NCBI RefSeq assembly: GCF_016595495.1
Contig: NZ_JAENIM010000041.1
Location: forward strand, 124,001 to 188,000
From: Persicirhabdus sediminis
Lineage (GTDB): Bacteria > Verrucomicrobiota > Verrucomicrobiia > Verrucomicrobiales > Akkermansiaceae
DNA length: 64,000 nt
Reading direction: 5' to 3'
Made by a program: the position numbers and the translations under genes. Under the pieces are notes generated by a model. The model worked only from the letters and a program-made list of their open reading frames with translations. It was not told the DNA's origin and searched no databases. Positions 3,400-29,516 of the stretch are shown here, piece by piece. Position 1 is the first letter of the stretch, and each line of letters opens with the position of its first letter.

Positions 3400-5697
3400 T
3401 TAGAAATGGACTTGGTTGTCACCGATGATTTGCACTTCGGTTTCGAGATCGATGTTGCGTTGAGTTTTTGCTTTATCTTGGATGCGAGAAATCAGCTCTA
3501 GCACATCACTTGCAGTGGCTTTGCCGCGGTTGATGATGAAGTTTCCATGAGCCGCGGAAACCTGCGCATTGCCTTGGCTGGCTTCTTTCATACCGAGTTC
3601 GTCTACCAGTTTTCCAGCTGGGATTTCAGCTGGATTTTTAAAGATGCATCCGGCGCTAGCGGCAATGGGCTGCGATTCGCGGCGCTTTTGTTTCGACTCC
3701 GCGATGCGCTGGTGGATAGATGAGGTATCGGCGGGTGATCCGCGGAAGGTCGCTTGCAGAGCAAAGTTGCGGCGAATTTCTGGCACATTGCGGTAGAATG
3801 TTTTGATTTCGTCACGTGTGCGCGTGCGGATTTCTCCATCTTCATCGAGGAAGGTGACACTAACCACATGATCAAATGTCTCCCAGCCCATGGCTCCAGC
3901 ATTCATGCGCAGGCCACCTCCAACATTGCCTGGTACACCTTCCATCCACTCCATGTCGCCAAGTCCGTTAGCTTCGGCTACGCTGGTAATCTTTTTAAAG
4001 CGCACGCCAGAACCAGCGCTGATGAGGTTGCCGTCCACGGTGACTTCGGAGAACTCGCCGCCTTTGGGATGAATAACCGCGCCGCGGATACCACCGTCTC
4101 TAACGAGGAGGTTGGAGCCGCGCCCAATCACGCGCAAGGGAATGCTGCGTTCGCGTAAGTAGTTAGTCAGTTTTTGAAATTGGACGAAAGTTGTTGGTTC
4201 TAGCCAGAACTGAGCTGGGCCACCCACTAACATGGTGGTGTGGCGGCGCATTGGTTCGTAGAGTTTGTGTTTCATTTCCCCGCAGAAACGCATCATTTCT
4301 TCGAGCGTCTGCATGTCGTTGGCAATCTTGGTGCCAGCTTCGTGAACGTTGCCAGCTCCCAGAGTGATGAGCAGGTCTCCTTCCGCTAGTTGGTTGCCGA
4401 GCTGGTGGTGAGCGCTGCTAACAGCACCAATGTACTCAGCTGGTGTATCGCCGTGACGCGCCATGGCGTCTACGATCGTTTGGCCGGTGATGCCTTCTAT
4501 CGGCAGCTCGCTAGCTGGATAGATGTCGGTGATAAATACCCGATCGGCAGCCTGGAGAGCGGCGCCAAATTCATCGGCGAGTTTTTGAGTGCGTGAGAAT
4601 CGATGTGGCTGGAAGAGCACAACCAAGCGCTTTGGTTTTAGTGAACGCGCTGTTTGTAGAGTAGCCGCTAGTTCTGTTGGGTGATGACCGTAGTCATCAA
4701 TGATGCGCAGTGTTGGCGAGAGGTATTTGGTTTCAAATCGGCGCTTGGCTCCAGCAAAGCTAGAAAGCGCGCGGGCAATTTGTTGGTGGCTGACACCAGC
4801 TGTATCAGCAACTGCGATAGCTGCTAGGCTGTTAAGTACATTGTGGCGGCCTGGAATACCCAGCTCAATGCGGCCAAAATACTCGCCATTTTTTACTACG
4901 TCGAAATTCACTGTGCCACCAGTTTCTAGGATGTTAGTCGCTGTGAAATCAGCATTTTCAAAGCCGTAGGAGATGGTGTTTTCTCTATCGGCATTGAGTT
5001 TGCTAGCAACTGGACAGCCGGCAAAGTAGATGATAGGGCCAGATGTTTGGCTCTGCAGCTTGGTGAAGACCTCGCAGATATGATCTAGGCCGCTGTAAAA
5101 ATCGAGGTGTTCTTCCTCGATGTTAAGCATCACGGTTATAGCTGGCTGATAGAGAGCGAGCGTGCCGTCACTTTCATCACCCTCAGCGACCATCAATTCG
5201 CCAGCCGGATCCCAACAAGCATTGGTGCCAAGAACTGGAATTTCGGCTCCAACATAATGGCTAGGTTTGACTTCTCCCTGGCGCAGAATGTGAGCACACA
5301 TCGCAGAGGTGGTTGTTTTGCCGTGGGTGCCGGAGATGATGATACCTTTTTTGGTATGCAAGATGGCTGCTAGGCATTCTGCGCGGCGCATGGTTGGAAT
5401 ACCTAACTCTGTGGCTCGCGCGTAGGCTGGGTTTTCTGGACGGATGGCTGATGAATAGATGACGACTTCGGCGTCATCGACATCTTCGGCGCGATGCGGG
5501 CAGGAGAACATGAGGCCTTTGTTTTGCAGGCGTTCGGTTTCTCCGCTAGTCACTCGGTCGCAGCCACTCACTTTGTGGCCCATTCCCAAGAGCAGTGAAG
5601 CGAGTCCGCTCATTCCTGATCCGGCCACACCTATCAGGTGGACTCGCATCGGCTGGTCAGATTGGGTAAGTTTGCTGCTGAGGTCGGATATTTTCAT
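3400..5697 (-). CDS. murC/murB: Fused UDP-MurNAc--L-alanine ligase / UDP-MurNAc dehydrogenase (MurC-MurB)
   Basis: A single 765 aa reading frame carries two consecutive muropeptide enzymes. Residues 1 to about 455 are MurC: Rossmann motif LIGVAGSGMSGLA (21-33), ATP-binding GTHGKTTT (123-130) and the DDYGHHPTE substrate motif. From about 465 to the end is MurB: FAD-binding VIGRGSNLLVRDGG (522-535), the catalytic-loop region SAGCIFKNP and a C-terminal NIDLETEVQIIG. MurB reduces UDP-GlcNAc-enolpyruvate and MurC then adds L-alanine, so the fusion ties product to next enzyme, in reverse order along the chain. An internal ATG at codon 462 could in principle start MurB alone. The frame is open throughout with no sign of a break. 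Confidence 0.95.
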   Translation of the reverse strand: MKISDLSSKLTQSDQPMRVHLIGVAGSGMSGLASLLLGMGHKVSGCDRVTSGETERLQNKGLMFSCPHRAEDVDDAEVVIYSSAIRPENPAYARATELGIPTMRRAECLAAILHTKKGIIISGTHGKTTTSAMCAHILRQGEVKPSHYVGAEIPVLGTNACWDPAGELMVAEGDESDGTLALYQPAITVMLNIEEEHLDFYSGLDHICEVFTKLQSQTSGPIIYFAGCPVASKLNADRENTISYGFENADFTATNILETGGTVNFDVVKNGEYFGRIELGIPGRHNVLNSLAAIAVADTAGVSHQQIARALSSFAGAKRRFETKYLSPTLRIIDDYGHHPTELAATLQTARSLKPKRLVVLFQPHRFSRTQKLADEFGAALQAADRVFITDIYPASELPIEGITGQTIVDAMARHGDTPAEYIGAVSSAHHQLGNQLAEGDLLITLGAGNVHEAGTKIANDMQTLEEMMRFCGEMKHKLYEPMRRHTTMLVGGPAQFWLEPTTFVQFQKLTNYLRERSIPLRVIGRGSNLLVRDGGIRGAVIHPKGGEFSEVTVDGNLISAGSGVRFKKITSVAEANGLGDMEWMEGVPGNVGGGLRMNAGAMGWETFDHVVSVTFLDEDGEIRTRTRDEIKTFYRNVPEIRRNFALQATFRGSPADTSSIHQRIAESKQKRRESQPIAASAGCIFKNPAEIPAGKLVDELGMKEASQGNAQVSAAHGNFIINRGKATASDVLELISRIQDKAKTQRNIDLETEVQIIGDNQVHF

Positions 5698-7030: not shown

Positions 7031-7741
7031 TTATTCAAAGGTGACGAGAATCACGGCATCCTGGAGATCGTAGTAACTGTTATTTTCTTCTCCAATGTAT
7101 CCGTAGGCTTCAAAGAAATAGATGACTTCGCGGCGGCCTAAAGTAACGTTTCCATCTTCATCGATGAACTTTTTGATGAAGTCTGCCGCGTCGCCTTGAC
7201 CACTGTGACCAGTTACATCTGGAGCTTCATCTCCATCGATGCAGGCAACAAGAGTTAGGTACTTGCTGTTTTTATCCAAGTTGGTAGCACGCCAGTTAGC
7301 TCGGCTGCCGGTGTAACCATCTTGTTTGATGCGGAAGTCGATGCGGGTATTGCTGTTAACTACCTCACCTGTGCTGTTTGGGCCGTTAAGCACTTTTTCT
7401 GGTTGCACGTCACTACTTACACCTTGGAAGATACGTTGCCATGAGCCATTGGCTCCGACTCTGTACTCTACATAAATGTCACCTCTGGTCATTTCTGCAG
7501 CTTTGACGCGAATCATCATGCGTAGGCCGTCTACAGAGATTTCTATGGAGCCATCTTCTTCATCAATATCAACGATATCTGAGATGTCTGGGTAATCAAT
7601 GTCCCATTCAACTTGTGTTTTACTTCCCCAACCCACTGAGTCAGGTACAATGAGCTTACCCGTAGGAATCTCATCATTAGCGGCGACTGTGAGCGAGAAT
7701 AGAGCGGTCGCTAACAGGGTGATATAGCTTTTAATCTTCAT
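7031..7741 (-). CDS. Secreted protein of unknown function, divergent from pseudopilin cassette
   Basis: A 236 aa protein with a signal peptide (residues 1-21, cleaved about at VAA-NDE). The mature part is acidic and rich in beta-prone segments, with aromatic motifs such as GSWQRIF and SRANWRATN, and no recognised catalytic motif. I do not recognise the family. It is transcribed away from the pseudopilin-like genes that begin at 8,029 across a 287-bp AT-rich spacer, so shared regulation is possible. It resembles the 8,534 product only in general style: secreted, beta-rich and acidic. A structural or surface role is a guess. Confidence 0.75.
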   Translation of the reverse strand: MKIKSYITLLATALFSLTVAANDEIPTGKLIVPDSVGWGSKTQVEWDIDYPDISDIVDIDEEDGSIEISVDGLRMMIRVKAAEMTRGDIYVEYRVGANGSWQRIFQGVSSDVQPEKVLNGPNSTGEVVNSNTRIDFRIKQDGYTGSRANWRATNLDKNSKYLTLVACIDGDEAPDVTGHSGQGDAADFIKKFIDEDGNVTLGRREVIYFFEAYGYIGEENNSYYDLQDAVILVTFE

Positions 7742-7935
7742 ACTTATGTTTTTGTTATGTTAGTATGAGGGCTTTTTTGTTCCTTCCGACAAAATCTAAT
7801 TAGGCCCCTTGGACAGGACATGTTAAGTACTAAAATTAACGATTTAGTTCCAGTCGTTTGTTTCGGTTAATTTCTATCAAGCGATCGTATAAGTCGGTCA
7901 TTTAATTGCGTTTGATAGATTTTATGTTAAATCGA

Positions 7936-7964
7936 TTGACGGGTTGTCTGATAAGTTCATATTT
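7936..7964 (+). promoter_or_regulatory. Possible sigma-70 promoter for the pseudopilin cassette
   Basis: TTGACG, a 17-bp spacer, then ATATTT, about 65 bp before the ATG at 8,029, in an AT-rich divergent intergenic region. The -10 match is weak, so this is only a candidate. Confidence 0.3.
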
Positions 7965-8028
7965 GAGTGAAGGAAAGGGGATGCTAAACTGTTTTAGTTT
8001 GTCTGTCTATTTCTGATAATTTAATATT

Positions 8029-8523
8029 ATGAAGGTTCTAACTATTGTAAAAAGAGCCCCCCATAACTTAGTTGCATTGCTTCTATCACTTTCACTGGCT
8101 GAAAGCGTTGTAGCTCAAGCATCGAAGGTTGAAGTCGTCGAGTTGCAAACTGAGACAGAGCCGCGAAGCAGGCCACAGTCTCAAACTCAATATATAACTG
8201 ACAGCTCTAAACGTTACACCCGCGTGCCTAAGGGGGCAATTGTCTATCTACCGGAGCATATGCAACGGTTTGTGTCGGAACAAATGCCGCAGCGCGGTGT
8301 TGGTTATAAATATGTGAAATGGCAAGAGTTCACTAAGATTAATCGCAACCTTCTGACGACATTTGAGTTACCTGATAGCTTCCTAAGTCGTGACGTGGAG
8401 GAACCCTACACGGAAGATGAGTTAATCCGTTTTACCAGCCATAGCCGGATTGTGGTAACGACTCGAGGAGGCAAACCGACTCGAGCTGGAAATAACCCTC
8501 GGTTGATGAATACTAACAAATAA
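8029..8523 (+). CDS. Secreted protein of unknown function (cassette gene 1)
   Basis: 164 aa. A basic N-terminus plus hydrophobic stretch (about 10-30, ending ESVVAQA) acts as signal peptide. The mature protein is polar, with a Q/R/S/T-rich linker (about 38-55), then a segment containing PKGAIVYLPEHMQRFVSEQ and a threonine- and arginine-rich tail (TTRGGKPTRAGNNP). No known domain or catalytic motif is seen. It is the first of five plus-strand genes spaced by 10 bp or less, so it is very likely part of the same operon as the three pseudopilin-like genes. Confidence 0.75.
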   Translation: MKVLTIVKRAPHNLVALLLSLSLAESVVAQASKVEVVELQTETEPRSRPQSQTQYITDSSKRYTRVPKGAIVYLPEHMQRFVSEQMPQRGVGYKYVKWQEFTKINRNLLTTFELPDSFLSRDVEEPYTEDELIRFTSHSRIVVTTRGGKPTRAGNNPRLMNTNK

Positions 8524-8533
8524 TCGCAGGACA

Positions 8534-9592
8534 ATGAAAAATAAAATATTCACCTCATTTGGAATCACACTGTTAGCTATAAATACCCTACTAGCTAGCG
8601 AACCAAGGTATTATAACTACATGAAGGAATTTTATTTCCTACCTGATGGTACAGGCCCTTGGGAGACCTTACACGACGGCATCGGCGTGAATGGTACTGA
8701 TGTTTCTCAGTATAATATCTATGGGCAAGGAAGTTATTTTGAACTCTGGTGTGATGATACCGAGTTTAGTGTTCCTCATCTGTTGGATACCAAACTTGTG
8801 GGGCCAGCAGTGCCCAAAGCTGACATCGCGATCACTACGGTGGATCCGTATGTTGGAGATTTTAGACGTACCCGTGAAGATAAGGGGTTTAGCTATCAAG
8901 TCACTATGTCAGGCATGGTGGTAGATGGATCTAGCGAAGAAGGTAACCATATTCGTCCAGACGTTGTGCACCTGATTCATGACTTCATCGACTGGGGAAA
9001 TAGCCACACTGTGGACACTAACCATAAGACCCGTGAACTAAAGGGCAATGGATCGACTGCTACCTACAATGAAGGTCAGCTTATCTCCTCTGGTTACGGT
9101 GAAGAAAAAGTCTACGTTAGAGCCGTGCTCGATGATGGAGATGGTGAGTATTCCAATCCGTGGATTGGTGAAGAGTTTCCTGAGTTCCTCGTCTATAAAA
9201 GAGAGACCGTTAGGGTTTTCCCTTACCCTTATGTTGCCTTTATAGGCATTACTAACGGTGAGACATTCACTTATGATATTCCTCAATGTCAGGTAACTGT
9301 GAGAAATGCTTATCCTGACAGTAGGGTCTTGATGAAGGCGTATATGCCAAGCCAGCAGTCGACCACCGAGAAGATTTTGGATCAACGGACTAACGGCAAT
9401 TATGGATCAACGATCAACTACACGCTTTTCTCACCAACTGAGATGAACAAAGCGATAGATAGAAACGGGACTTGGACTATTGAAGTGATAGATTATTCAC
9501 CAATCAGCCCTGAAGGAGAGTTGCGCTCAAAGGTGACCTTCAATGTTGATAGACGAATTTCAGTCAATGCAGATCTCCACACAGCACAATAG
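8534..9592 (+). CDS. Secreted protein of unknown function (cassette gene 2)
   Basis: 352 aa with a signal peptide (1-21, MKNKIFTSF to LLAS). The mature protein is acidic and probably all-beta, with many Tyr, Asp and Gly residues; a C-terminal part (about 230-345) has alternating hydrophobics around GETFTYDIPQCQVTVRN and ends with NGTWTIEVID, like an Ig-like or beta-sandwich module. No catalytic motif is recognised. An AGGA stands just before the ATG. The gene overlaps the next one by 50 bp, arguing for co-translation. A surface or tip-associated structural role is inferred from the neighbours only. Confidence 0.72.
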   Translation: MKNKIFTSFGITLLAINTLLASEPRYYNYMKEFYFLPDGTGPWETLHDGIGVNGTDVSQYNIYGQGSYFELWCDDTEFSVPHLLDTKLVGPAVPKADIAITTVDPYVGDFRRTREDKGFSYQVTMSGMVVDGSSEEGNHIRPDVVHLIHDFIDWGNSHTVDTNHKTRELKGNGSTATYNEGQLISSGYGEEKVYVRAVLDDGDGEYSNPWIGEEFPEFLVYKRETVRVFPYPYVAFIGITNGETFTYDIPQCQVTVRNAYPDSRVLMKAYMPSQQSTTEKILDQRTNGNYGSTINYTLFSPTEMNKAIDRNGTWTIEVIDYSPISPEGELRSKVTFNVDRRISVNADLHTAQ

Positions 9593-10076
9593 TAAGTGTG
9601 CTTCAAACAAGACGGTGCAGCGTGTGCGCCGTCTTGTTAAAGGAAGCGCTTTGGTGGAGCTTGCGGCGTCAATATGTCTGCTTGTTAGCTTCGCAGGCGT
9701 CACCATGAAGACGACTTACTCGAATCTATCAGCTAGAAACTGGGTGGTAACTCAGACGATGGTAGATGCCTATATGAATGTGATTGCTACGGAAGCGCAA
9801 GCAATTGCTTTTGAAGAAATTGATGACTTTGGCAGTCATTGGCCTGAGGCCAGTGAGATGAGAGAGACTGAAGTCGAACTGGGTAAGTTATCTTATGGTA
9901 AGCCGTTTATGGCTAAATTATACCAAGCACGTATGCCTGTTTATTCCTCAGCGGATATGAATGGTGATGGCGGCGATTATCTTAAGATGGACACGTGGCG
10001 GTTGCGCATGGTTATCAAATACGAAATTGATGGCAGGTCGTATGCGAGTTCTCGCACTGTAGTTAGAAATAAATAG
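9543..10076 (+). CDS. Pseudopilin-like protein (cassette gene 3)
   Basis: 177 aa with a class III (prepilin) signal: a basic leader ending RRLVKG, then cleavage after Gly34 and the hydrophobic helix SALVELAASICLLVSFAGV with Glu39 at mature position +5. The C-terminal part is a small globular domain with an acidic calcium-loop-like segment (SADMNGDGGDYLKMD). Pseudopilins assemble into short periplasmic fibres after cleavage by a prepilin peptidase such as PilD. The start at 9,543 is favoured by AGGTGA at 9,531-9,536 (6-bp spacing) although it overlaps the previous gene by 50 bp; ATG 9,567 and GTG 9,615 are alternatives. Confidence 0.72.
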   Translation: MLIDEFQSMQISTQHNSKCASNKTVQRVRRLVKGSALVELAASICLLVSFAGVTMKTTYSNLSARNWVVTQTMVDAYMNVIATEAQAIAFEEIDDFGSHWPEASEMRETEVELGKLSYGKPFMAKLYQARMPVYSSADMNGDGGDYLKMDTWRLRMVIKYEIDGRSYASSRTVVRNK

Positions 10077-10077
10077 T

Positions 10078-10653
10078 ATGAAAAGAATGTCCCCAGCGAA
10101 GTCAAAAAGAAAGCTCAAAGGGTTCACTCTGGTAGAACTAACTGTAGCGATAGGTGTTAATCTAGTTATCATTGGAGCAGCGCTTGCTGTGTTGACCCAA
10201 CAGAGCGCTATTAATAATGAAATCCGTAAGCGGAGTTTCATTCCTGAGCAGGCACCACAGATAAATACTGTGGTGAGCAAAATGATTAAACGAGCAGATC
10301 GTTTTCAAATTTATAAAGATGTGGCGGCCGCTCAATCTGCAAATGCAGCTACCAGTTTAGCCGATTGTTCTGCAATTTTGTTAGTTTATCGAGATTCTAT
10401 AGGAGGAAGGGTTTTTGGGTTAATTGGCGTGGAAGAAGTCGGCGATCAGGTGAACCTTAATTATTATCTGAATTCAGGTTCAGGTTGGGGGGGCGCGCCT
10501 AGCTGGAAAATTGCTAGCTGGGGGAAATCTGATACGATCAAAGATAACAACGATCTACCATTTGATCTTTCGGTAGAGAATGGAGTTCTACGGATGAAGT
10601 TAACAGGACCATTAGATGAGGAGGTTACTTATGCATCATTGTCAGCATATTAA
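10078..10653 (+). CDS. Pseudopilin with canonical GFTLVEL N-terminus (cassette gene 4)
   Basis: 191 aa. The N-terminus KLKG|FTLVELTVAIG is a textbook prepilin cleavage site: Gly15 at -1, Phe16 at +1 and Glu20 at +5, followed by a hydrophobic helix to about residue 36. The remaining 150 residues form a globular domain resembling J-type minor pseudopilins or Verru_Chthon cassette members in size and layout. The ATG follows the previous stop codon by one base. Its 3' end overlaps the next gene. No pilus ATPase, platform protein or prepilin peptidase is encoded nearby, so assembly must rely on genes elsewhere. Confidence 0.85.
   Translation: MKRMSPAKSKRKLKGFTLVELTVAIGVNLVIIGAALAVLTQQSAINNEIRKRSFIPEQAPQINTVVSKMIKRADRFQIYKDVAAAQSANAATSLADCSAILLVYRDSIGGRVFGLIGVEEVGDQVNLNYYLNSGSGWGGAPSWKIASWGKSDTIKDNNDLPFDLSVENGVLRMKLTGPLDEEVTYASLSAY
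10618..10624 (+). promoter_or_regulatory. Ribosome binding site that fixes the start of the large pseudopilin gene
   Basis: GAGGAGG lies inside the end of the preceding gene, 6 bp before ATG 10,631. This favours that start over the ATG at 10,616, which would sit upstream of the strong Shine-Dalgarno sequence. Confidence 0.8.
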
Positions 10654-12643
10654 AAATTCTACTCGTGCTGGATTCTCTTCAGTGCTGAGTATTATCACGA
10701 TTTTCATTATCGTTATGGGGCTGGTTGTTGTGGGTACCAAGCGTGCAATGTTAGGCCTGGATACAAAACGTGATTCATTGCTGCGCTCTGATTACGCGCA
10801 AAAGGAAGAGGCCTTCCAACAAGCGCTGCTGCGGATCTTACCTGAGCGGGCGATGAAAGGCATGGACAGCGGTTCGAAGATTGGCAATGAAGATGACCTT
10901 GTCTCGTGGAGTCGCATTTTCAGAGATGCCATTCGCGATGCCAATGCGGCTAACGATGCTGGAGATTTGAGTGATGATATTCTCAGTAAGATTCTGGAAG
11001 ACGGGGTGATCTCTGGCAATACAGGCTCAACGGAGCTAACTGTAGCCAATTTTAACACCGCGAGTGTGAAAGATCTTCAAGGTGTTAGTGGCCGTGCTAC
11101 TTCGATTCCAATTGCTGGTCATGATTTTCCTCCTGAGTGGTCGGTGCTAGCTTCTGGTCAAACTTTGGATTCATTAGGCCCTGTAGTTAGCTTGAATAAA
11201 ACTTATACAAATGGAGGTTCTAGTGGAGATGCCTTTGGCATGGTTGAATACCCGAATGTACGCTTTGGCTATGCGGAAGCGGGCAGTGAGATTGTAGCAC
11301 GACACAACTGGTGGGCTATCTCTGTTGATTTTTCTGAAGGAGATAGAGAGTCGACAGGGATTGCAGATGGAAAGAAAAAATATCTACTATCACTTTATGA
11401 AATACCATCTCAGTTACCGATTACTGCAGATGCTTTGATGGAATTTGGTAACTGGGATAGGCAGAAGGTCACCATTGATGGTAGAGTTTATGCCTCTTCA
11501 GCAACTCAGGTCGGCAACCAAGTGGGGACTCAAGATATAGCGGGCATAGCTACTCGTGATGGTGTTGATTTCTCAAACATGTCAGTGATAGAAGGCATTG
11601 ATGATAGTATGGTTTCTCGTGACGATTTTGAGGCTCAGCATGCAAACCTATACGAGGATGAGATATTTTTTCCTATTTCACAAGTAGGTGATGGAACCAA
11701 AGTAGCGTTCTTACCAATCAACCCAGGTAGAGACTTTTATACCGACTACTATGTTGATGGCGCTTATGATGATTTGAATTCTCATTCAGATTCAGCTTGG
11801 GATCAATATGCTAGAGGTTCGAAGAAGTGTCAGATTCGTGTGGTTATTGTTGATACTTCTCCAATGACCAGTGAGTATCCAGCGCAGGTCAATACGATTA
11901 AAGTGTTAGCTAGAGGGGCTGACGGTTCTGATGTCGTTAGGTATTATTACCGCTTGGAGTTTCCAGAGGTATTGGACACTAGTCACCCTGGGGCACAACA
12001 TATAACGTGGGAGACATCGAGCCAAACCTTCCCCTTCTCTGTGGACGAAATCGAAAATATTGATGGTAATGGAGGTGCTCAGAGTTCGTTAAATATTGAT
12101 TTTGCTAAGTTAGCTAACTACATCACGAACGACCTGAGCTTATCCTTGGATGATAATCATACTTTGGTAGTGACTCATCAAGCAGCCGCTCGAGATGGAT
12201 ACTATGTGAATAGTGAACGCTTTAGCTTTCCGCCCGATGACGATGATATCGCTCTAGTGATCAACGGCGCGACTGACATGACGGTTTGGGGAAACCAGGG
12301 GTTTTCGTTAGTCAGTAATATGAGGACCTACTTTGATAACGACTTTAACGTCGTCGACCGAAGTTCAGGTGCTGGTAGAGGCAGCCCTCCTCCCGTGAGT
12401 ATTTTTACTCCAGAGCAGCGTTTCAGTACTCTCTATATTATGGATGTTGATATTACTGGCCGCATACATGTGGTTCATACAGAGACTGGCGAGAGTGTTG
12501 ACCCCTTGGAAATACGCGGACGTGATGGCACGGTTAATGATAGTAGTACTTCTAGCTTTAATCTGGGGCAGATCAAACGGGTTGAGGATCTACCGCCGAT
12601 CTTCTTTATGAATTGGCTAGTCGTTATCCGAGAACTACGTTAG
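10631..12643 (+). CDS. Large GspK/PilX-like pseudopilin (cassette gene 5)
   Basis: 670 aa. The N-terminus NSTRAG|FSSVLSIITIFIIVMG has a prepilin-type Gly14 at -1, Phe15 at +1 and a long hydrophobic helix, but Leu19 instead of Glu at +5. Large size and missing Glu5 are the hallmarks of GspK, the capping minor pseudopilin, and of PilX-type proteins; the large A protein of Verru_Chthon cassettes has a similar plan. The big extracytoplasmic part is acidic, beta-rich and has no recognised enzyme motif. It overlaps gene 4 by 23 bp and ends 4 bp from the convergent HAD gene. That it caps a fibre made by the preceding pseudopilins is inference. Confidence 0.75.
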   Translation: MHHCQHIKNSTRAGFSSVLSIITIFIIVMGLVVVGTKRAMLGLDTKRDSLLRSDYAQKEEAFQQALLRILPERAMKGMDSGSKIGNEDDLVSWSRIFRDAIRDANAANDAGDLSDDILSKILEDGVISGNTGSTELTVANFNTASVKDLQGVSGRATSIPIAGHDFPPEWSVLASGQTLDSLGPVVSLNKTYTNGGSSGDAFGMVEYPNVRFGYAEAGSEIVARHNWWAISVDFSEGDRESTGIADGKKKYLLSLYEIPSQLPITADALMEFGNWDRQKVTIDGRVYASSATQVGNQVGTQDIAGIATRDGVDFSNMSVIEGIDDSMVSRDDFEAQHANLYEDEIFFPISQVGDGTKVAFLPINPGRDFYTDYYVDGAYDDLNSHSDSAWDQYARGSKKCQIRVVIVDTSPMTSEYPAQVNTIKVLARGADGSDVVRYYYRLEFPEVLDTSHPGAQHITWETSSQTFPFSVDEIENIDGNGGAQSSLNIDFAKLANYITNDLSLSLDDNHTLVVTHQAAARDGYYVNSERFSFPPDDDDIALVINGATDMTVWGNQGFSLVSNMRTYFDNDFNVVDRSSGAGRGSPPPVSIFTPEQRFSTLYIMDVDITGRIHVVHTETGESVDPLEIRGRDGTVNDSSTSSFNLGQIKRVEDLPPIFFMNWLVVIRELR

Positions 12644-13380: not shown

Positions 13381-14832
13381 TTATTTAGCCGGCCAGACCT
13401 TGCGATGCTCAGCGGTCATTTGCTCAACCATTTTTTCGTATTCTGGATCAGTTGATAGGTTTTGGTTGCCAGCGGGATCTTCTTGTAGGTCATACAGTTC
13501 GATGCCAACGATTTCCTTGTTTTTATCTTTTTCCCAAATGGTGAATCGATAGCGATCTGAGCGGATCGAACGGCCCATGACAGGACCTTTTTTCAGCTGG
13601 CTGAAGGCAAATTTGCGTGCGGGTAAGGATGGATCTTTGACTAAGGGAACTAAGCTAGATCCTTCACAATGTGCTGGCGTTTTGATGCCGCTGGCCTCGC
13701 AGAGGCTTGGGTACACATCGAGAAATTCTACCAGACCATTGACGCGAACGGCTTTCTTTTGTCCGGCTGTGCGCAGGATGAGAGGGGCGTGGTTAGAGCT
13801 TTCCCAGTTGACGCCTTTAGCCCAAGTATTGTGGTTGCCGAGTTGGTAGCCATGGTCACCCCAAATCACAATGACGGTATTGTCGTAGAGACCAGCTTCT
13901 TTGAGTGCGCTGACTACTTTGCCGAGTTGTGCGTCTACGTAGCTAACACATGCTAGATAGCCATGTATGGACTGGCGCATTTGCGCTTCAGTTAGCGGGT
14001 GCTTTTCTGGAATATCGCTGTAGCCGCCAAGCTCTCCAACAGATTTTTTTAATGCGATCTGTGGAGCATCTTTTGGGTAGTAGTTGTTGTCAGCCAGAGG
14101 AAGCGCATCGCGGTCGTACATGTCCCAGTATTTCTTGGGCGCACACCACGGGAGGTGTGGGTGCCTGAAACCCAGCGCCATAAAGAATGGCTTGTCTGAG
14201 CCAGAGCGCGCGAGAATTTCCTTAACCGCTGCATCGGCAGCTTGGCCGTCGCAGTAAGCATCATCAGCAACATCTTCTAGCTCGATAGAAGGTGGTAGGC
14301 CCTGAGATTTTTTTGGATTGAAAAAGGTAGCTGCTAGTTTCTTGTTTTCAGGACGAATGTGGTCTAACCACTTGGTTTTGAAATACGGCTTTGACCAGCC
14401 ATCATTCGGGCCTTCGCTAGCGTGATAGATTTTGCCGATACCGATGACGTCGAAGCCTTGCTGCATGAAGTATTTATTCATGACCAAGGTGTCAGTTAGT
14501 TCATTGTGAGCTGGCTGGTTATTTCCGTAGACCCCAGAACTATCTGGGCGCAGGCCGCTCATCAAGCTGGTGCGTGAGGCGTTACAGATGGGGTACTGGC
14601 AGTAGGCTCTCTCAAATACAGTGCTTTCTTGTGCCAGTTGGTCAATATGGGGAGTTTTGGCTAGCTCGTCACCGTAACATCCAAGTGCTGGCATCAGGTC
14701 GTCAATGACGACCATCAGCACGTTTTTTTTCTCCTCAGCGGCTATGGAGGCAGCTGAACACAGCAAAATCCCAGCTGTGAGCTTGAGCATTTTTGCCCAA
14801 TGTTTGATTCCGAATTTCGACATATCGTTCAT
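13381..14832 (-). CDS. Secreted sulfatase, iduronate-2-sulfatase-like
   Basis: 483 aa type I sulfatase with an N-terminal signal peptide (about 1-32). Key features are the metal-binding Asp pair VVIDDLMPALGCYG (41-54), the formylglycine site CNASR (Cys83-Arg87, C-x-A-x-R type) in ICNASRTSLMSGLRPD, a second metal site at IVIWGDHGYQLGNHN and the GLYDNTV run before it. The SGLRPDSSGVYGN segment is typical of the iduronate-2-sulfatase branch. The Cys must be converted to formylglycine by a maturase encoded elsewhere. It would desulfate sulfated glycans in the periplasm or outside. It follows the beta-helix enzyme gene on the same strand, suggesting a joint polysaccharide role. Confidence 0.92.
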   Translation of the reverse strand: MNDMSKFGIKHWAKMLKLTAGILLCSAASIAAEEKKNVLMVVIDDLMPALGCYGDELAKTPHIDQLAQESTVFERAYCQYPICNASRTSLMSGLRPDSSGVYGNNQPAHNELTDTLVMNKYFMQQGFDVIGIGKIYHASEGPNDGWSKPYFKTKWLDHIRPENKKLAATFFNPKKSQGLPPSIELEDVADDAYCDGQAADAAVKEILARSGSDKPFFMALGFRHPHLPWCAPKKYWDMYDRDALPLADNNYYPKDAPQIALKKSVGELGGYSDIPEKHPLTEAQMRQSIHGYLACVSYVDAQLGKVVSALKEAGLYDNTVIVIWGDHGYQLGNHNTWAKGVNWESSNHAPLILRTAGQKKAVRVNGLVEFLDVYPSLCEASGIKTPAHCEGSSLVPLVKDPSLPARKFAFSQLKKGPVMGRSIRSDRYRFTIWEKDKNKEIVGIELYDLQEDPAGNQNLSTDPEYEKMVEQMTAEHRKVWPAK

Positions 14833-14956
14833 TAAGTGGTGTTAAATGAACGATAGTATGATGTTTATTGCAGCTGTTAGCGATCCTTTGTTTACTCCTT
14901 ATGTTTCAGCTGGGGATGAGCCAGGAGCCATTCTCTAGCTGGCGCGATGTCTTTAC

Positions 14957-17218
14957 TTAGTTCTTAGCTGGTGAGATCTCAATGAAATCTAGCGGAGCTC
15001 TGGATTCGCCACTAGCTAGAGCCTTGACCATGATGCGGTCGTATTTTTTCAGAGCAACGTTTTTCAGGTGATGGACAGCAGGTTGTGGGAGGTCTTTGAT
15101 CTGGCTGGATGCCCACATCCAGCTTGGGTTAGCCTCGGTGCGGTCGTGGTCACATTCGATTTCAAATCTGTAGTTAGCAGAGTTTTTCTCGCCGCCATCA
15201 AAGAGAACATCACGCAGGTAGCCGACTTCGATATCATAGCTGCCGTCTTCACCGGTAAAGATAAACTCAGCTTCAGCCCATTGTGGGTTGCCTGATAGAT
15301 GATCAGTAATCAGCCCTGCCATGGCGACAGCCATGCCGCTAGAAGCTCTATCAGTAGGCATTTTTCTATAAAGGGAAAGGTGCATGTCCTCTGCTTCAAT
15401 GCGCGAATCCGCAGTAGGCATGGCGAGCTGTTTAGCTCTGAGTTGGCGGAAATCATTTTCTAGGCCAGCTTTGGATTTCACCTCAGCTAGGAGCGGCGAA
15501 TCAGCTGGAATTGGGGTATTGATCATTGGGCAGTATTCGGCGCCTTTGTTCTGAATGTTGATACGTGGGCCAGTGACTGCGTTGTCTTTAAAGATGATGA
15601 ATCGGCTTTGAGTTTCTGATTTAGGTCCACCGTCGGTGTATAAGTTGCCTGTCCATGTACGATCGATTCCGTGGCACCAGTTTTCATAAATATAGCTGTT
15701 TTGGTAATCTGGATTTTGTTCAGGGTTTTCATCTTCTGCACTGATTCCCTGAAGCCCGAATGTATAGATATTGCCGCCGTCATTCATCGTCTGCATGCTG
15801 CGATAGATGTGGTTTCTGCGGACGATGTTGCGGCGCATGCCAGTGTCTCTAACTTTCAGGGTATTGCGTCCTGTTTGGATGCCGATGTATGGCACATCTG
15901 AGATGTCATTGTGTTCAACGATGACGTCTTTATGGAAAGTACCTCCAGCGATTCCCTGGGCGCTAAAGTAGTTTCTACCAACCAGGCGAATGATGTTATT
16001 CTTCACGGTGACAGACTCAGTTTGTACAGCTGGGTCAATGCTCATATTCATGCCTAACTGGATGCCATTACCCATGATAGTATGGAACACATTGCCTGTG
16101 ATTTGGGCATTTTTGAAGGTATCAATGATGAGTAGACCACTGTGGCCAGCAGCTTGTACGGTGTTGTTGCTGAACTCGATGTGATGCGCGTTTCTAGCTT
16201 CTACCATGCCGCGCATTTTTGGGCCGCGACGTAATCCCTGAGTTAGGTCTAAACCCATGTGATCAGGATCTAGCCAGTTGGTGTGCTCTAGGGTTAGGTT
16301 GCTGATTTTGATGTGCTGAGTAATTTTGTCGTCAGCTTGGCCAATTTGAATGAGCGAGACGATTTTTGGCGCAACGATATCTAGCTGGTTAGGATCTACT
16401 CCTGGCTCAGGGATGTAGTAGACCACTTGCTCTTGAGCATCGTGGTACCATTCGTTTTGGTCATCTAGCAGCGCGTAGTGACCTTCGAGAAATGACTCTC
16501 GTTTGGCGTAGTGGTGGGCGCCAGTATGCACGAGGTTTTCGAAGTTAGGCGAGTGTGCAAAAACTTGATCGCCCTCGGCTGTGTACGAGTCAATGCGCAT
16601 GCGGGTATGGTACCATACGCCGTGGATGATAAGCTCGAGCTGTTTGCAGTCAGCTGGATCAATGGCAAATCCTTCGATTTCTTTTTTATCGAACTGGAAG
16701 TGGTGTTGGTTGAAATCGATCTCGCGGTTGAGGAAGTAGGGTTGCTGTGAATAATAGTCTAGCTGGTTTGGGTGGCGAGCGCGCACCGCATCTTTGCCGT
16801 CAACGTAGAGCTGGCGGAAATTGCTGCCGATTGGTTTGCTACTGGCTTTCCAGATGTTTTTCTCAGCATCGTGGATTTCCCAGTTATTAATTTTTCTGCC
16901 GCCGCTGATAGAAACGGTGGCTCCATCTTGGGCGCTCAGCGTTGTGGGTGAGTCTGCTGATCCTGACCAGTTAGAAGTTATGCGAATCGGTTCATTGGCC
17001 TCGTAATGGCCAGCTGTGAAGATGATATTTAGGCTAGCCTCAGGGTCTAGGGTGGCGACTTTGCCATTGAGACCGTCAATGTGGCCGGGGGATTCTTGAG
17101 AGAACGATTGACCTGAGCCGTCTGGAGCTAGATAGATATCGATGGGGCCATCAGCCATTAGTGATGAACTGGTGAGCAGACTAGCTGAAATCGTAGCGAA
17201 AATGAATCTTGCGCGCAT
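14957..17218 (-). CDS. Secreted right-handed beta-helix protein, probable glycan-active enzyme
   Basis: 753 aa with a signal peptide (1-22). An N-terminal segment with DIYLAPDGSG is followed by ISGGRKI, then FRQLYVDGKDAVRARHPN, a signature of beta-helix glycosidase families such as GH141 and related lyases. The middle (about 300-520) holds parallel beta-helix repeats rich in Asn ladders (KISNLTLEHTNW, IEFSNNTVQAAGHSG, ITGNVFHTIMGNG, VKNNIIRLVGRN). The C-terminus (about 600-750) looks like a beta-sandwich module that starts SRIEAEDMHLSLY, like CBM6/35-type domains. Substrate is not deducible; the adjacent sulfatase suggests a sulfated polysaccharide. The GH141 link is from memory of motifs and is tentative. 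Confidence 0.8.
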   Translation of the reverse strand: MRARFIFATISASLLTSSSLMADGPIDIYLAPDGSGQSFSQESPGHIDGLNGKVATLDPEASLNIIFTAGHYEANEPIRITSNWSGSADSPTTLSAQDGATVSISGGRKINNWEIHDAEKNIWKASSKPIGSNFRQLYVDGKDAVRARHPNQLDYYSQQPYFLNREIDFNQHHFQFDKKEIEGFAIDPADCKQLELIIHGVWYHTRMRIDSYTAEGDQVFAHSPNFENLVHTGAHHYAKRESFLEGHYALLDDQNEWYHDAQEQVVYYIPEPGVDPNQLDIVAPKIVSLIQIGQADDKITQHIKISNLTLEHTNWLDPDHMGLDLTQGLRRGPKMRGMVEARNAHHIEFSNNTVQAAGHSGLLIIDTFKNAQITGNVFHTIMGNGIQLGMNMSIDPAVQTESVTVKNNIIRLVGRNYFSAQGIAGGTFHKDVIVEHNDISDVPYIGIQTGRNTLKVRDTGMRRNIVRRNHIYRSMQTMNDGGNIYTFGLQGISAEDENPEQNPDYQNSYIYENWCHGIDRTWTGNLYTDGGPKSETQSRFIIFKDNAVTGPRINIQNKGAEYCPMINTPIPADSPLLAEVKSKAGLENDFRQLRAKQLAMPTADSRIEAEDMHLSLYRKMPTDRASSGMAVAMAGLITDHLSGNPQWAEAEFIFTGEDGSYDIEVGYLRDVLFDGGEKNSANYRFEIECDHDRTEANPSWMWASSQIKDLPQPAVHHLKNVALKKYDRIMVKALASGESRAPLDFIEISPAKN

Positions 17219-17335
17219 GATTGTATAGCATCAGGTTTTTTGTAAAATTCAAGCGCAGGTGAATCTATCAATTTTGTCAGATAGAAACGGATTTGGCTCT
17301 TGACGCATGCTAATGAAATAGAGAGAACACTTTTG

Positions 17336-18298
17336 ATGAAAACGTTTATTAGAGTATTTCTAGCTGGAATTTTTATCGCGGCTAGCAGTTTGATTCCTTC
17401 ATGTGCCCCGGTGAGCACGCAAACTAAACTGCAGCCGGGGCAGTACGAGTGGAATCCTGAGCGGGCGACGAGCGGGCCAGTATTGATGGTTGTTAGTATC
17501 GATGATCAAATGGCTTATGTTTACCGCAACGGCATACAGATTGGTCGTTCAACAGTAAGTACTGGCCGCGAAGGTAAGGAGACGCCAACCGGTGTATTTA
17601 CCATCTTGCAGCGCAAAGTGGAACATGAGTCCAACATTTATAAAGGCGCTCAGATGCCATACATGCAGCGTCTAACTTGGTCAGGCATTGCGATGCACGC
17701 TGGTCAACTTCCCGGCTACCCAGCCTCTGGCGGGTGTATTCGTCTGCCATATGAATTTTCACAAAAGCTCTATAGTGTAACGGCTAACGGCACGACCGTA
17801 GTGATTACCAAGAAGAATACTATTCCTTCGAGCTCATCCACCCCAGCGAGTGTATTGTTAGCTTCCAAATCTAAGACTGGCGAAAAAGTTCATCCAGATC
17901 CAGAAGGTCGCATTGTTTGGAATCCATCGAAGTCTCCATCAGGTCCTGTGAATGCGGTGATCAGCTATGGTGATCGCACGATTTATCTGTTCCGCAATGG
18001 TGTTGAGATTGGTCAAGCTCCAGTTGGCATCCACGGGACAGGATCACTTCCTGAAGGTGTTTTTGTTAAGTTAGAATCTCCTGGAGGTGTGCCATCATGG
18101 TCAGTACTGAGCCTCAAAGGTGGCTCCATCCGTGGTGATGTGGCTAAGGGAATTAAAGATCGCATTACCATCCCAGCGAGCTTCCGTGCTAAAGCGGGTG
18201 ACCTGCTAGCTCCGGGTAGCATCTTACTGATCACCAAAGAATCTAGCAATGCCGGAACTCGTTCAGGTACTGATTTTGACATCATGAAACCTGAATAG
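17336..18298 (+). CDS. L,D-transpeptidase family protein (YkuD), lipoprotein-like
   Basis: 320 aa from ATG 17,336; a frame extension to TTG 17,300 is unlikely because the ATG gives a clean signal sequence. The signal ends SSLIPSC, so Cys23 may be lipidated. The YkuD domain (about 45-155) includes His121 and catalytic Cys134 in the motif SGGCIRLP; the usual SHGC histidine is Gly here. YkuD enzymes cross-link peptidoglycan through diaminopimelate or attach proteins. A second domain (from about 193) repeats the first strand pattern (WNPSKSPSGPV, then YLFRNGVEIGQ) but lacks the His/Cys active site. A paralogue lies at 20,044-20,994. Confidence 0.88.
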   Translation: MKTFIRVFLAGIFIAASSLIPSCAPVSTQTKLQPGQYEWNPERATSGPVLMVVSIDDQMAYVYRNGIQIGRSTVSTGREGKETPTGVFTILQRKVEHESNIYKGAQMPYMQRLTWSGIAMHAGQLPGYPASGGCIRLPYEFSQKLYSVTANGTTVVITKKNTIPSSSSTPASVLLASKSKTGEKVHPDPEGRIVWNPSKSPSGPVNAVISYGDRTIYLFRNGVEIGQAPVGIHGTGSLPEGVFVKLESPGGVPSWSVLSLKGGSIRGDVAKGIKDRITIPASFRAKAGDLLAPGSILLITKESSNAGTRSGTDFDIMKPE

Positions 18299-18346
18299 CT
18301 TTCATTTCACCCTCAGCTTAGGCAATGGCTGAGGGAGGAAATTTCT

Positions 18347-18378
18347 AGCTGGCTACCTCGGTAGCCAGCTTTTTTTTT
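18347..18378 (+). terminator. Rho-independent terminator after the L,D-transpeptidase
   Basis: AGCTGGCTACC and GGTAGCCAGCT pair around a tiny loop and are followed by nine T residues. The stem contains the window's frequent AGCTGG/CCAGCT word on both arms. Confidence 0.93.
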
Positions 18379-18433
18379 GGCTCAGCCAGATGGCTTGCAT
18401 TAATAGAATTTCGTATTACTTTACCCATTAGCT

Positions 18434-19156
18434 ATGAACGAGTTTTCAAAGCCATTTGTGTTTGCTGTGATTGCTGGCGGGCTGGCGACTCCGTGTAGCG
18501 ACGCGGCTATCTTGCGTGATTATCAGAAATCGATCCTCAGCGACCCTGACGTCGTTCTAGCTACAGCGATTCCTGCAGCGGATAAGTCAGGAAAAGCTGA
18601 TGTCGTGCGCACCACCTCAAACAAATACAATAAGACCGGGCAGGTGATTGAGAGTAGTGCGCTGGATGGCGATGAATTTAATATCTCGTCAATGGTGCTG
18701 CAGGCTGGCAGTAGTGGCTCTCTTCCAGATACTGGCATACACCAAATGGAAGTCTGGATAGGCAGCTGGGATGATTCAACAGATTCGCCTGGAGCCGTAA
18801 TTCACAGTGAAGTCTTTGATCTAACTGGATTTGATTACCAAGACGGCGAATTTTATGAATTTGTCTTCAGCTCGACATTCGATCTAGCTGCGGGAAGTGA
18901 ATACACCTTTCAGACATGGTGGACGAGTGATGATGCCAGCCACTCACTCAGCTGGGAGCGAGCCAATGGTCAAGGCATCATCGCAGGCGGATTGATTAAT
19001 GATAGCTCCTCATCAACTTCATTTCCATTTTCTGATACCCCTGAGCCAACACAGGATCTTGTTTTTGCATTTATTCAAGTGCCAGAGCCGTCGAGTGCAT
19101 TGCTCAGTCTAGCGGGCATGAGCTTGTTGTTATTTAGACGTGGGCGCAAACATTGA
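18434..19156 (+). CDS. PEP-CTERM sorting-signal protein
   Basis: 240 aa exported protein. An N-terminal signal (about 1-26, ending PCSDAA) precedes a beta-rich domain (about 60-205) with HQMEVWIGSWDD and a choice-of-anchor-like pattern. The C-terminus carries VPEPSSALLSLAGM, a hydrophobic helix and the basic tail FRRGRKH, the tripartite PEP-CTERM signal recognised by exosortase. Such proteins are exported with exopolysaccharide systems in Verrucomicrobiota and other Gram-negatives. No exosortase gene is in the window. The gene stands alone behind a terminator. Confidence 0.88.
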   Translation: MNEFSKPFVFAVIAGGLATPCSDAAILRDYQKSILSDPDVVLATAIPAADKSGKADVVRTTSNKYNKTGQVIESSALDGDEFNISSMVLQAGSSGSLPDTGIHQMEVWIGSWDDSTDSPGAVIHSEVFDLTGFDYQDGEFYEFVFSSTFDLAAGSEYTFQTWWTSDDASHSLSWERANGQGIIAGGLINDSSSSTSFPFSDTPEPTQDLVFAFIQVPEPSSALLSLAGMSLLLFRRGRKH

Positions 19157-19194
19157 GCCTTGAATAGGAGGGTTTTGTTAGCTAGTTAGCTTCT

Positions 19195-19389
19195 ATGAAG
19201 TTATGTTTGATGGTTGTAAGCTGTGGTTCTTTTCTTGTTCTATTCTTATCTAGCTGCGTCACTGAGCGCACGGTGACTAACGAATCTGGTGATGTCTTAT
19301 TGAAAGAGACAGTGGTTAATAAGCCATTTGAGAGTGAGGCAGAAAAACAAGCAGAGGTGCAAGAAGAGCTTCGCCAGCATGGATGGTAG
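19195..19389 (+). CDS. Small lipoprotein
   Basis: 64 aa. The signal peptide ends in the lipobox LSSC (Cys21), so the product is probably a lipid-anchored small protein. The mature part (about 44 residues) is charged and helical at its end (EAEKQAEVQEELRQ). No family is recognised. Its stop codon is one base from the convergent NlpC/P60 gene stop, a tight arrangement that makes both boundaries plausible. Confidence 0.7.
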   Translation: MKLCLMVVSCGSFLVLFLSSCVTERTVTNESGDVLLKETVVNKPFESEAEKQAEVQEELRQHGW

Positions 19390-19390
19390 C

Positions 19391-20038
19391 TTAGCTGCTA
19401 GGTGGCGACCCGTAACCAACAAATTTTGATTTCGACTTTGAGCTAGGAAGTTTGAAGTCGAAAACACCAAACCCGCAGCGCGCTTTTCCTTGATAGCTGC
19501 GACCGTCGCTAGAGCCTATCATGATGGCTTTGCCCCTTGCTTTTTCTACTCCCAAGTACATCTGGACATGAGTGATTTTATTAGCGCGTTTGTCTTTAGG
19601 GGAATAGGTTCCAGACCAAAATAACAAATCGCCTGGCTGGAGATCGGCGAAGGCAGGGTCATCTAGCGAGCTCGTTCCAGCTGGCACGGAATGAATTTCG
19701 CCAGCTGATTTGAGCCATTCGTATTGTGCCGATGAGCTACGTGGTGGCTGGTAGCCACATTGCTTTAACAGATAGAAGATCGAACCTGAGCAGTCGAAGC
19801 CACCTTTGCTAGGGTCGGCGCTGGCGTAAACGTAGCTGTTGAGTTTTAATTCCTTAGCTTCGCTTAGCGAGGTGTCTACCAGCTTTTTCTGAGCTGCCGA
19901 GAATTGTTTATAGTCAGCAATATCTTGGCTGGCGACGAGGCCGGGTAGTGGTCTGTTGGATGGATTTTCTGCGTGACTGCAAGCAGCCAGTAACCAAGCG
20001 CCCAGTAGACCTGAGACTAGATAGTGGGGAAGTTTCAT
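19391..20038 (-). CDS. NlpC/P60-family peptidase lipoprotein
   Basis: 215 aa with lipoprotein signal (LLAAC, Cys20). The NlpC/P60 catalytic residues are visible: Cys83 in FDCSGSIFYLL, His157 in ITHVQMYLG, and the LQPGDLLFW motif between them. These papain-like enzymes usually cut between D-Glu and diaminopimelate in peptidoglycan peptides. The start lies 5 bp after the stop of the L,D-transpeptidase gene at 20,044-20,994, so the two form an operon of peptidoglycan cross-linking and cutting enzymes. Confidence 0.9.
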   Translation of the reverse strand: MKLPHYLVSGLLGAWLLAACSHAENPSNRPLPGLVASQDIADYKQFSAAQKKLVDTSLSEAKELKLNSYVYASADPSKGGFDCSGSIFYLLKQCGYQPPRSSSAQYEWLKSAGEIHSVPAGTSSLDDPAFADLQPGDLLFWSGTYSPKDKRANKITHVQMYLGVEKARGKAIMIGSSDGRSYQGKARCGFGVFDFKLPSSKSKSKFVGYGSPPSS

Positions 20039-20043
20039 GGTAT

Positions 20044-20994
20044 CTACTCGGCTTTTTCTTCCTTGTGGCCAATCAGAATACTAAAGTCGTTTTGGCTGCG
20101 TTTGTTAGCGCCTGAGCTTTCGTTAGTAACAATCAAGTTAGTTCCTGGCCCAACGACTTCTGTGAGGTGTTTCTGGAAGGCGGCTGGCATCTTGAACCAC
20201 TCGTTGAGTTGGTTTTCGTGGTTGCTTTCGTGTCCACCTACTTGTGTCCAGCTAGCGGTTTTCGTACCATCGCGGCCATTGTTTTGCCATTCATGGAAAA
20301 CAAACGCGCTGGTGCCTTTTGGCCTTTTATCAAACCAGCCTGTGTGCACGGCGCATTCACCAATGGCATGGCCATTGCGAATGACGTAGAGTTTTTTATC
20401 TGCCTGACTATATAACAATGACACTGGCCCAGCTGGAGATGCCTGTGGGTTCCAGCTGAATTCACCATCCGTACCTGAGTGGAAGCTCAAGCTATGGCTG
20501 CTCGTCACTGGCACACTTGGCGTATCATTAGAAACGACCACTGTGGTTCCTTTGTGAGTCAGGGTGAAAAGCTTTTTAGCAAATTCATAGGGCAGGTGGA
20601 TGCAGCCGTGTGAGGATGGATAGCCAGGTAGGCCACCGGCATGTAGCGCTACGCCATCCCAGGTCAACCTTTCAGAGTAGGGCATGGATGCATTGCCGTA
20701 GGTTTTAGAGTGGTGGTCAGCGTCTTTATTGAGAATTTGAAATACTCCAGTTGGGGTTTCGTGCCCCGGTTTGCCTGAGCTCACTTCACAGTGGCCAATG
20801 CGGATACCGTTTCGATAGACCGCAGCGACTTGGCTTTTTAGGCTAACAGAGATAATGATGGGACCTTCTTTTGAGAGCTCAGGGTGCCATGAATAACTGT
20901 CTTCGCTGTACTGGCGATCTTTGTGTTGGGCTAGGACGGAGGCGGCTGAGAGTCCAGCTAGGGTTAGGGTGAGTAGGAGATGTTTAGCTTTCAC
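20044..20994 (-). CDS. L,D-transpeptidase family protein (YkuD)
   Basis: 316 aa, GTG start at 20,994, signal peptide 1-22 (SAASVLAQ). The YkuD domain (about 45-150) has His118 (ALHAGG), His129 and catalytic Cys131 in SSHGCIHLP, the complete canonical motif. A second half (from about 175) repeats the N-terminal strand pattern (WNPQASPAGPV, then YVIRNGHAIGE) but has no catalytic Cys/His and ends with NLIVTNESSG, close to the end of the paralogue at 17,336-18,298. The pair therefore derives from one duplication and each protein also from an internal duplication. It is co-transcribed with the NlpC/P60 gene. Confidence 0.9.
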   Translation of the reverse strand: MKAKHLLLTLTLAGLSAASVLAQHKDRQYSEDSYSWHPELSKEGPIIISVSLKSQVAAVYRNGIRIGHCEVSSGKPGHETPTGVFQILNKDADHHSKTYGNASMPYSERLTWDGVALHAGGLPGYPSSHGCIHLPYEFAKKLFTLTHKGTTVVVSNDTPSVPVTSSHSLSFHSGTDGEFSWNPQASPAGPVSLLYSQADKKLYVIRNGHAIGECAVHTGWFDKRPKGTSAFVFHEWQNNGRDGTKTASWTQVGGHESNHENQLNEWFKMPAAFQKHLTEVVGPGTNLIVTNESSGANKRSQNDFSILIGHKEEKAE

Positions 20995-29336: not shown

Positions 29337-29411
29337 GCGGGTGTAGCTCAGGGGTAGAGCGCAACCTTGCCAAGGTCGAAGTCGAGAGTTCGAATCTCTT
29401 CACCCGCTCCA
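29337..29411 (+). tRNA. tRNA-Gly (GCC), copy 1
   Basis: 75 nt with encoded CCA. Acceptor arms GCGGGTG/CACCCGC pair fully, the D arm is GCTC/GAGC, the anticodon loop TTGCCAA carries GCC at 29,369-29,371, and the T loop is TTCGAAT. The anticodon stem has an A28-C42 mismatch. Copy 2 is identical. Confidence 0.97.
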
Positions 29412-29441
29412 TTTTCTCAACAACAAATCATTTGCATAAAA

Positions 29442-29516
29442 GCGGGTGTAGCTCAGGGGTAGAGCGCAACCTTGCCAAGGTCGAAGTCGAGAGTTCGAAT
29501 CTCTTCACCCGCTCCA
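29442..29516 (+). tRNA. tRNA-Gly (GCC), copy 2
   Basis: Base-for-base identical to the copy 30 bp upstream, including the encoded CCA and the A28-C42 anticodon-stem mismatch. The two are probably one transcript ended by the hairpin at 29,526-29,555. Confidence 0.97.

Follow-up and report, generated by a model that had tools for sequence, protein, structure and literature searches.

In Myxococcus xanthus, three paralogous clusters of minor pilins and PilY1 (clusters 1-3) serve one type IVa pilus machine (PMC7541494). PilX and GspK both lack the glutamate at the fifth residue after cleavage (Glu5), and both are placed at the tip of their filaments (PMC7541494). In Thermus thermophilus, ComZ is a pseudopilin-like tip protein with a pilin domain closest to that of GspK; it binds DNA, and its locus has adjacent minor pilins (PMC6561018). 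Verrucomicrobia are unmentioned in the main text of the main filament survey, which expected few new families in the sampled phyla (PMC6668835). Here, a 64,000-nucleotide stretch of the Persicirhabdus sediminis genome (contig NZ_JAENIM010000041.1, positions 124,001 to 188,000; hereafter the window) was analysed, and we were particularly interested in a six-gene cassette at 7,031-12,643, which encodes three secreted proteins (genes A, B and C) and three prepilin-like proteins (genes D, E and F). With a probability of about 0.55, we read it as a tip cassette, one of five that serve a dedicated and divergent type IV filament machine present in about half of the sampled Verrucomicrobiales; in this retractable filament, D-E-F would be the tip complex, and A-B-C would bind ligands and be exchangeable. 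No description of the machine was found in the open-access literature; subscription papers were outside the search.

The conservation of the cassette was measured from gene F, which was searched in the window genome (4.17 Mb, 97% complete) and 57 relatives, making 58 Verrucomicrobiales genomes. At least one copy was present in 29 of the 58, and the window genome has five. Homologs of A-E were collected with iterated profiles around the 33 F copies, which lie in 31 loci. D and E were present in 30 of these loci, with D-E-F adjacent; B and C were present in 23 and A in 16. Most often, the genes run A-B-C-D-E-F on a single strand. Because the homologs of the six genes are found together at other loci, with their order unchanged, the six-gene cassette is more than a chance arrangement. 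Gene A is inverted in the window only among the five copies of this genome, and since it is co-directional with the cassette in the other four, the inverted gene is part of the cassette. An earlier interpretation made from the letters of the window (the sequence-only reading) had described it as a divergent secreted gene, which is correct for its orientation but not for its standing as a separate gene. The same reading depended on the secreted genes being conserved beside the pilins, and the neighborhood survey agreed with it, as gene C was found somewhere in every F-positive genome, even where A-B-C are missing beside D-E-F. The mean identity between copies was 31-36% for A, B and C and 42-46% for D, E and F, indicating that A-B-C diverge more. 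Moreover, for each of the six proteins the window copy stands apart from the other four (for example, 27.5% versus 34.2% for C and 36.6% versus 46.5% for F), which is what inheritance of the cassette as one unit would produce. In a 288-genome sample of the phylum, F was confined to Verrucomicrobiales (13 genomes). Named hosts include Haloferula rosea, H. luteola, Luteolibacter pohnpeiensis, Roseibacillus persicicus, and Prosthecobacter and Verrucomicrobium strains.

The sequence-only reading had stated that the cassette has no assembly machinery. This holds for the window but not for the genome. Searches of the window genome for T2SSE and secretins found an ATPase of a divergent class and a secretin on another contig (C16, 55-58 kb), adjoining a paralogous cassette (L021). 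The operon (locus L083) encodes, in order, an ABC-type permease, an unknown protein (lp), a PilT-like ATPase (T), prepilin g1, M, two small membrane/periplasmic proteins, secretin Q, x192, a PilB-like ATPase, a PilC/GspF protein, x142, prepilin g2, x144, x264, x216, x158 and x195, followed by the converging cassette. Except for contig ends and accessory genes, this order was the same in 16 of the 16 genomes examined. Membership of the type IV filament superfamily calls for an assembly ATPase, a platform protein and pilins, with a secretin as well in diderms. PF00437 (273 bits), PF00482 (125 bits) and PF00263 (115 bits) all matched above cut-off, and the machine prepilins showed prepilin N-termini together with weak N_methyl/GspG matches. 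The parts of the system are thus members of a known superfamily. The curated types of this superfamily, on the other hand, were not reached. ATPase T is nearest to PilT (TIGR01420, 236 bits versus a cut-off of 319), with PilT chains as the top matches in the PDB, and the PilB-like ATPase is nearest to PilB (TIGR02538, 316 bits versus 676), so the type IVa families are the closest ones at scores below their curated cut-offs. The type II secretion models gave 281 of 630 bits for GspE, 126 of 351 for GspD and 142 of 424 for GspF. The superfamily matches and the sub-cut-off scores therefore indicate a type IV filament machine that is divergent from each curated type. It shares type IV pilus machinery and the bacterial family with the Akkermansia type IV pilus, but the secretin type of that pilus (Amuc_1098, NF042912) occurs in 58 of 58 genomes, whereas the C16 secretin scored 60 bits against its cut-off of 750.

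Protein M (583 amino acids (aa) in the window genome) has one internal membrane stretch. A profile search of M against the PDB gave no match, and its position and topology are compatible with a GspL/PilM identity. No match in Pfam was found for x142-x195, lp or the ABC-type permease. In most genomes, synteny with the machine extends to the ABC-type permease and lp (L083:8-1453). The secreted protein x195 (about 190 aa) usually lies on the opposite strand between C and D, and in the window genome it ends the machine operon (L083:14951-15538); it is also present in L027, L029, L031, L032, L034-L038, L041, L042, L045 and L047-L049. One prepilin peptidase match was found in the window genome.

The occurrence of the machine and the cassette was compared. 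Gene M is single-copy wherever present (28 of 58 genomes), with an additional fragment of 40 residues at the end of a contig in G024. It was found in 28 of the 29 F-positive genomes versus none of the 29 F-negative ones (Fisher p 2e-15, or 6e-8 when collapsed to genera). The sole F-positive genome without M is an 82%-complete assembly of 410 contigs (G047). Three genera (g6, g10 and g12) hold both states, and in these F and M change together. The distance between machine and cassette was no more than 15 kb in 10 genomes (G000, which is the window genome, and G012, G014, G015, G036, G042, G046, G048, G049 and G053). As controls, the Amuc_1098-type secretin was found in 58 of the 58 genomes, ComEC in 54 and TIGR02600 in 52. 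Because the Akkermansia-type pilus secretin is present in all of them, the link between F and M is specific. The sequence-only reading had proposed a GspH-K-like tip set with secreted partners, served by type II/IV machinery encoded elsewhere, and this near-perfect co-occurrence supports the proposal. The window genome has five F copies and at least six copies of gene C, among them an orphan A-B-C set, versus one machine, which resembles clusters 1-3 of M. xanthus in that several paralogous sets of minor pilins and secreted non-pilins are found per machine. However, neither a PilY1 nor a FimU equivalent was recognized, three unrelated secreted proteins (A, B and C) are present instead, and no similarity between the M. 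xanthus cluster proteins and the window cassette was detectable in Pfam/NCBIfam.

All six open reading frames (ORFs) of the window cassette are intact, so the five packed plus-strand genes and the gene at 7,031 stand as the sequence-only reading had given them, as do the three prepilin-type N-termini. Gene D (9543..10076, plus strand) encodes a minor pilin in the GspI/PilV-like position, with predicted cleavage between VKG and SALVE (Gly codon 9642). Gene E (10078..10653, plus strand) encodes a minor pilin in the GspJ/PilW-like position, with cleavage between LKG and FTLVE (Gly codon 10120). Gene F (10631..12643, plus strand) encodes a large tip-type pilin (GspK/PilX/ComZ-like) with cleavage between RAG and FSSVL (Gly codon 10670). 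The longest ORF of gene F begins at 10616, but the start is most likely 10631 because AGGAGG lies directly upstream of it. In the homolog alignments, counting the sequences that have the column, Glu5 was present in 30 of 30 D and 29 of 29 E proteins and in 0 of 33 F proteins. GspI-J-K and PilV-W-X show this same arrangement, in which a large pilin lacking Glu5 comes after two that have it. The cassette is like the type II GspI-GspJ-GspK tip in gene order, in the sizes of D and E, and in the presence of Glu5 in all but one of the three pilins. In contrast to that tip, it is matched with a machine that has a PilT-like ATPase, and F scored to no T2SSK model; none of the 33 F proteins matched a Pfam or NCBIfam pilin model, including those of GspK and PilX, at E<=1. 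F is also twice the size of a typical GspK. In sequence searches of Pfam, NCBIfam and the PDB, A-F gave matches to the prepilin N-terminus only, and none of the six genes was above a curated cut-off in Pfam or NCBIfam; gene E showed weak, sub-cut-off matches to N_methyl (the prepilin methylation motif) and to GspJ/GspH/ComG.

The AlphaFold2 model of F shows an N-terminal helix (residues 18-82, 65 residues) and a beta-rich head, with a predicted local distance difference test score (pLDDT) of 74 and a predicted template modelling score (pTM) of 0.78. When the model was compared with the PDB by VIA, ComZ was the sole standout (Z 6.2 over 251 residues, root-mean-square deviation 4.7), and the next row had Z 3.2. 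Like ComZ/PilA2 of T. thermophilus (6qvi; PMC6561018), the cassette has a large pilin with a big beta-rich head and adjoining smaller minor pilins; F and ComZ gave no sequence match to each other.

Genes A, B and C carry Sec-type signal sequences, as judged by eye and by hydropathy. Gene A (7031..7741, minus strand), the first gene of the cassette, encodes a secreted protein of about 236 aa; the homolog alignment gave the motifs PTGxLxV...xLxWxIxYP and, at the C-terminus, YDLQDxVxLVTF, and no Pfam or NCBIfam family was found for it. Gene B (8029..8523, plus strand) encodes a secreted protein of about 164 aa with the core TxVPKGAILHxP...FLxxNRxW...VVA, for which neither a known family nor a solved relative was found in sequence searches of Pfam, NCBIfam and the PDB. 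The divergent intergenic region between A and B-F (7742..8028) presumably contains both promoters. Promoter-like sites scanned there, and terminators, were no more frequent than in shuffles, and no site is claimed. Gene C (8534..9592, plus strand) encodes a secreted protein of 352 aa. Its AlphaFold2 model has three tandem fibronectin/immunoglobulin (Ig)-type beta domains (pLDDT 74, pTM 0.64). The last domain resembles an RbmA domain (Z 8.7 over 97 residues), and the other matches are generic beta domains. Foldseek gave many generic matches to Ig and fibronectin type III domains, and no family could be assigned from it. Domains of these types are frequent in adhesins, and their presence proves no function. 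No PilY1 domain was found by Pfam in the window A, B and C proteins or in the A and C families. The function of A-B-C could be analogous to that of PilY1.

A mechanism can be proposed from these results. D, E and F would be processed by the prepilin peptidase. F, which lacks Glu5, would sit on top, with E and D below it, and this trio would prime a pilus built of the pilins of the machine operon. A, B and C may cross to the periplasm via Sec, be mounted on F, and be displayed outside upon filament extension. Their Ig/fibronectin-like domains would bind a surface or a ligand, and retraction of the PilT type would pull either the cell or whatever is bound. The one machine would obtain a tip of different specificity from each cassette, with five cassettes giving five specificities. 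Because the PilT-like ATPase belongs to the operon, a retractable pilus is more probable than the short fibre of the sequence-only reading.

Several observations weigh against the tip-cassette interpretation. The cassette beside the machine (L083) consists of A, B, C and F, without D and E. Eight F loci have no adjacent A-B-C, and some A-B-C sets stand alone, such as L178 in the window genome and a tandem pair in L187; therefore, the pairing would be partly in trans. G019 and G020 contain C but neither F nor M, although both C matches lie on short contigs of fragmented assemblies. Moreover, Foldseek of the F model against the PDB gave no match under E 0.9, and the ComZ match is taken as suggestive only, because Z values below 8 are common for unrelated folds.

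The lone A-B-C sets are what would be expected of substrates, and the main rival explanation is a type II-like secretion system in which A, B and C are released as matrix or binding proteins and D-E-F form the pseudopilus tip that loads them. The order of D-E-F fits GspI-J-K, the best score of the platform protein is to GspF, and M (about 583 aa, with its one membrane stretch) is compatible with a GspL-like role by position. However, the operon includes a PilT-like retraction ATPase, which is absent from type II systems, the main ATPase is matched better by PilB than by GspE, and A-B-C are a fixed trio rather than a varied enzyme set. We consider such a secretion system unlikely. A filament for polysaccharide capture, a role that the sequence-only reading had suggested, with one cassette per glycan, appears still less probable. 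C resembles adhesin-like beta domains such as those of RbmA and GbpA; by eye, the genes found within 11 kb of the window cassette include two for sulfatases and one for a beta-helix protein, and the orphan A-B-C set has a DUF1080-like protein encoded beside it. On the other hand, the neighbors of the other cassettes share no common carbohydrate theme, the matches to beta domains are of a generic kind and say nothing about function, and no carbohydrate-binding family was detected. Polysaccharide as the ligand is a guess.

The standout structural match of F to ComZ would also fit a DNA-uptake pilus, with the cassettes acting as receptors for DNA in the manner of ComZ with PilA2, as ComZ binds DNA and has adjacent minor pilins (PMC6561018). 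The match is modest, though, and a common fold shows no function. ComEC was present in 54 of the 58 genomes irrespective of the machine, and in the window genome it is on contig C34, with about 11 kb between it and the other PilB pair. Five diverged cassettes are also ill-suited to a uniform ligand like DNA, and we regard DNA uptake as very unlikely. Competence as the function of the machine was rejected, since ComEC does not follow the machine. The least probable explanation, hardly to be expected, is a divergent branch of the Verru_Chthon cassettes (TIGR02596, 02598-02600), a kinship to which the sequence-only reading had pointed. Both are tandem, multi-copy prepilin-like genes of Verrucomicrobiota with a large protein lacking Glu5. 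However, they differ in families and loci, and Verru_Chthon A has 1,200-1,800 aa versus about 660 aa for F. TIGR02600 matched 0 of 33 F proteins, and the TIGR02600 genes of these genomes are located elsewhere. By hhalign, F reached 15% to TIGR02600 members and 1% to the Verru_Chthon-like proteins of the window genome itself, whereas those two groups reached 95.5% with each other. Among the E proteins, 3 of 32 touched TIGR02596 (best E 0.076). Verru_Chthon membership was rejected, as a profile search of the window proteins and of all F proteins gave no match to TIGR02596/98/99/600 and hhalign gave 15% or less.

Related genes were also observed elsewhere in the genome. Contigs C9 and C41 (L188:8934-18310, L190:3212-11587 and L191:6368-9949) encode five GspK-like proteins of 1,181-1,285 aa, 'GFALIATIAVMALMAVTALAML', with an N-terminus related to Verru_Chthon A and an adjoining secreted partner of about 245 aa (four seen). 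Contig C9 also encodes GspE and GspF (L189:7363-10413). These genes appear to be a second type of cassette together with a machine of its own.

In the window itself, one ORF of 765 aa (3400-5697) reads as a MurC-MurB fusion adjoining MurG, and a tandem pair of tRNA-Gly (gcc) genes lies at 29337-29516. Near the cassette, two sulfatase-like genes and a beta-helix protein (13381-17218 and 21407-23050), recognized by eye, suggest the use of sulfated polysaccharide. At 17300-20994, also by eye, two L,D-transpeptidase-like genes with duplicated domains flank an NlpC/P60-like gene.

Beyond the window cassette, we tentatively propose, at somewhat under even chances, a new family of type IV filament machines, restricted, among the sampled genomes, to Verrucomicrobiales. 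One retractable machine would take exchangeable cassettes tipped by the non-pilin trio A-B-C, and specificity would evolve by whole-cassette duplication and swapping. If true, unnamed genes of a widespread bacterial order would become a defined machine with a testable output, and this machine would be carried by cultured hosts (Haloferula, Luteolibacter, Roseibacillus and Verrucomicrobium). It would add an extra branch to the type IV filament superfamily. Moreover, it would be a natural system of one motor and several tips, which would bear on the origin of pilus-tip specificity.

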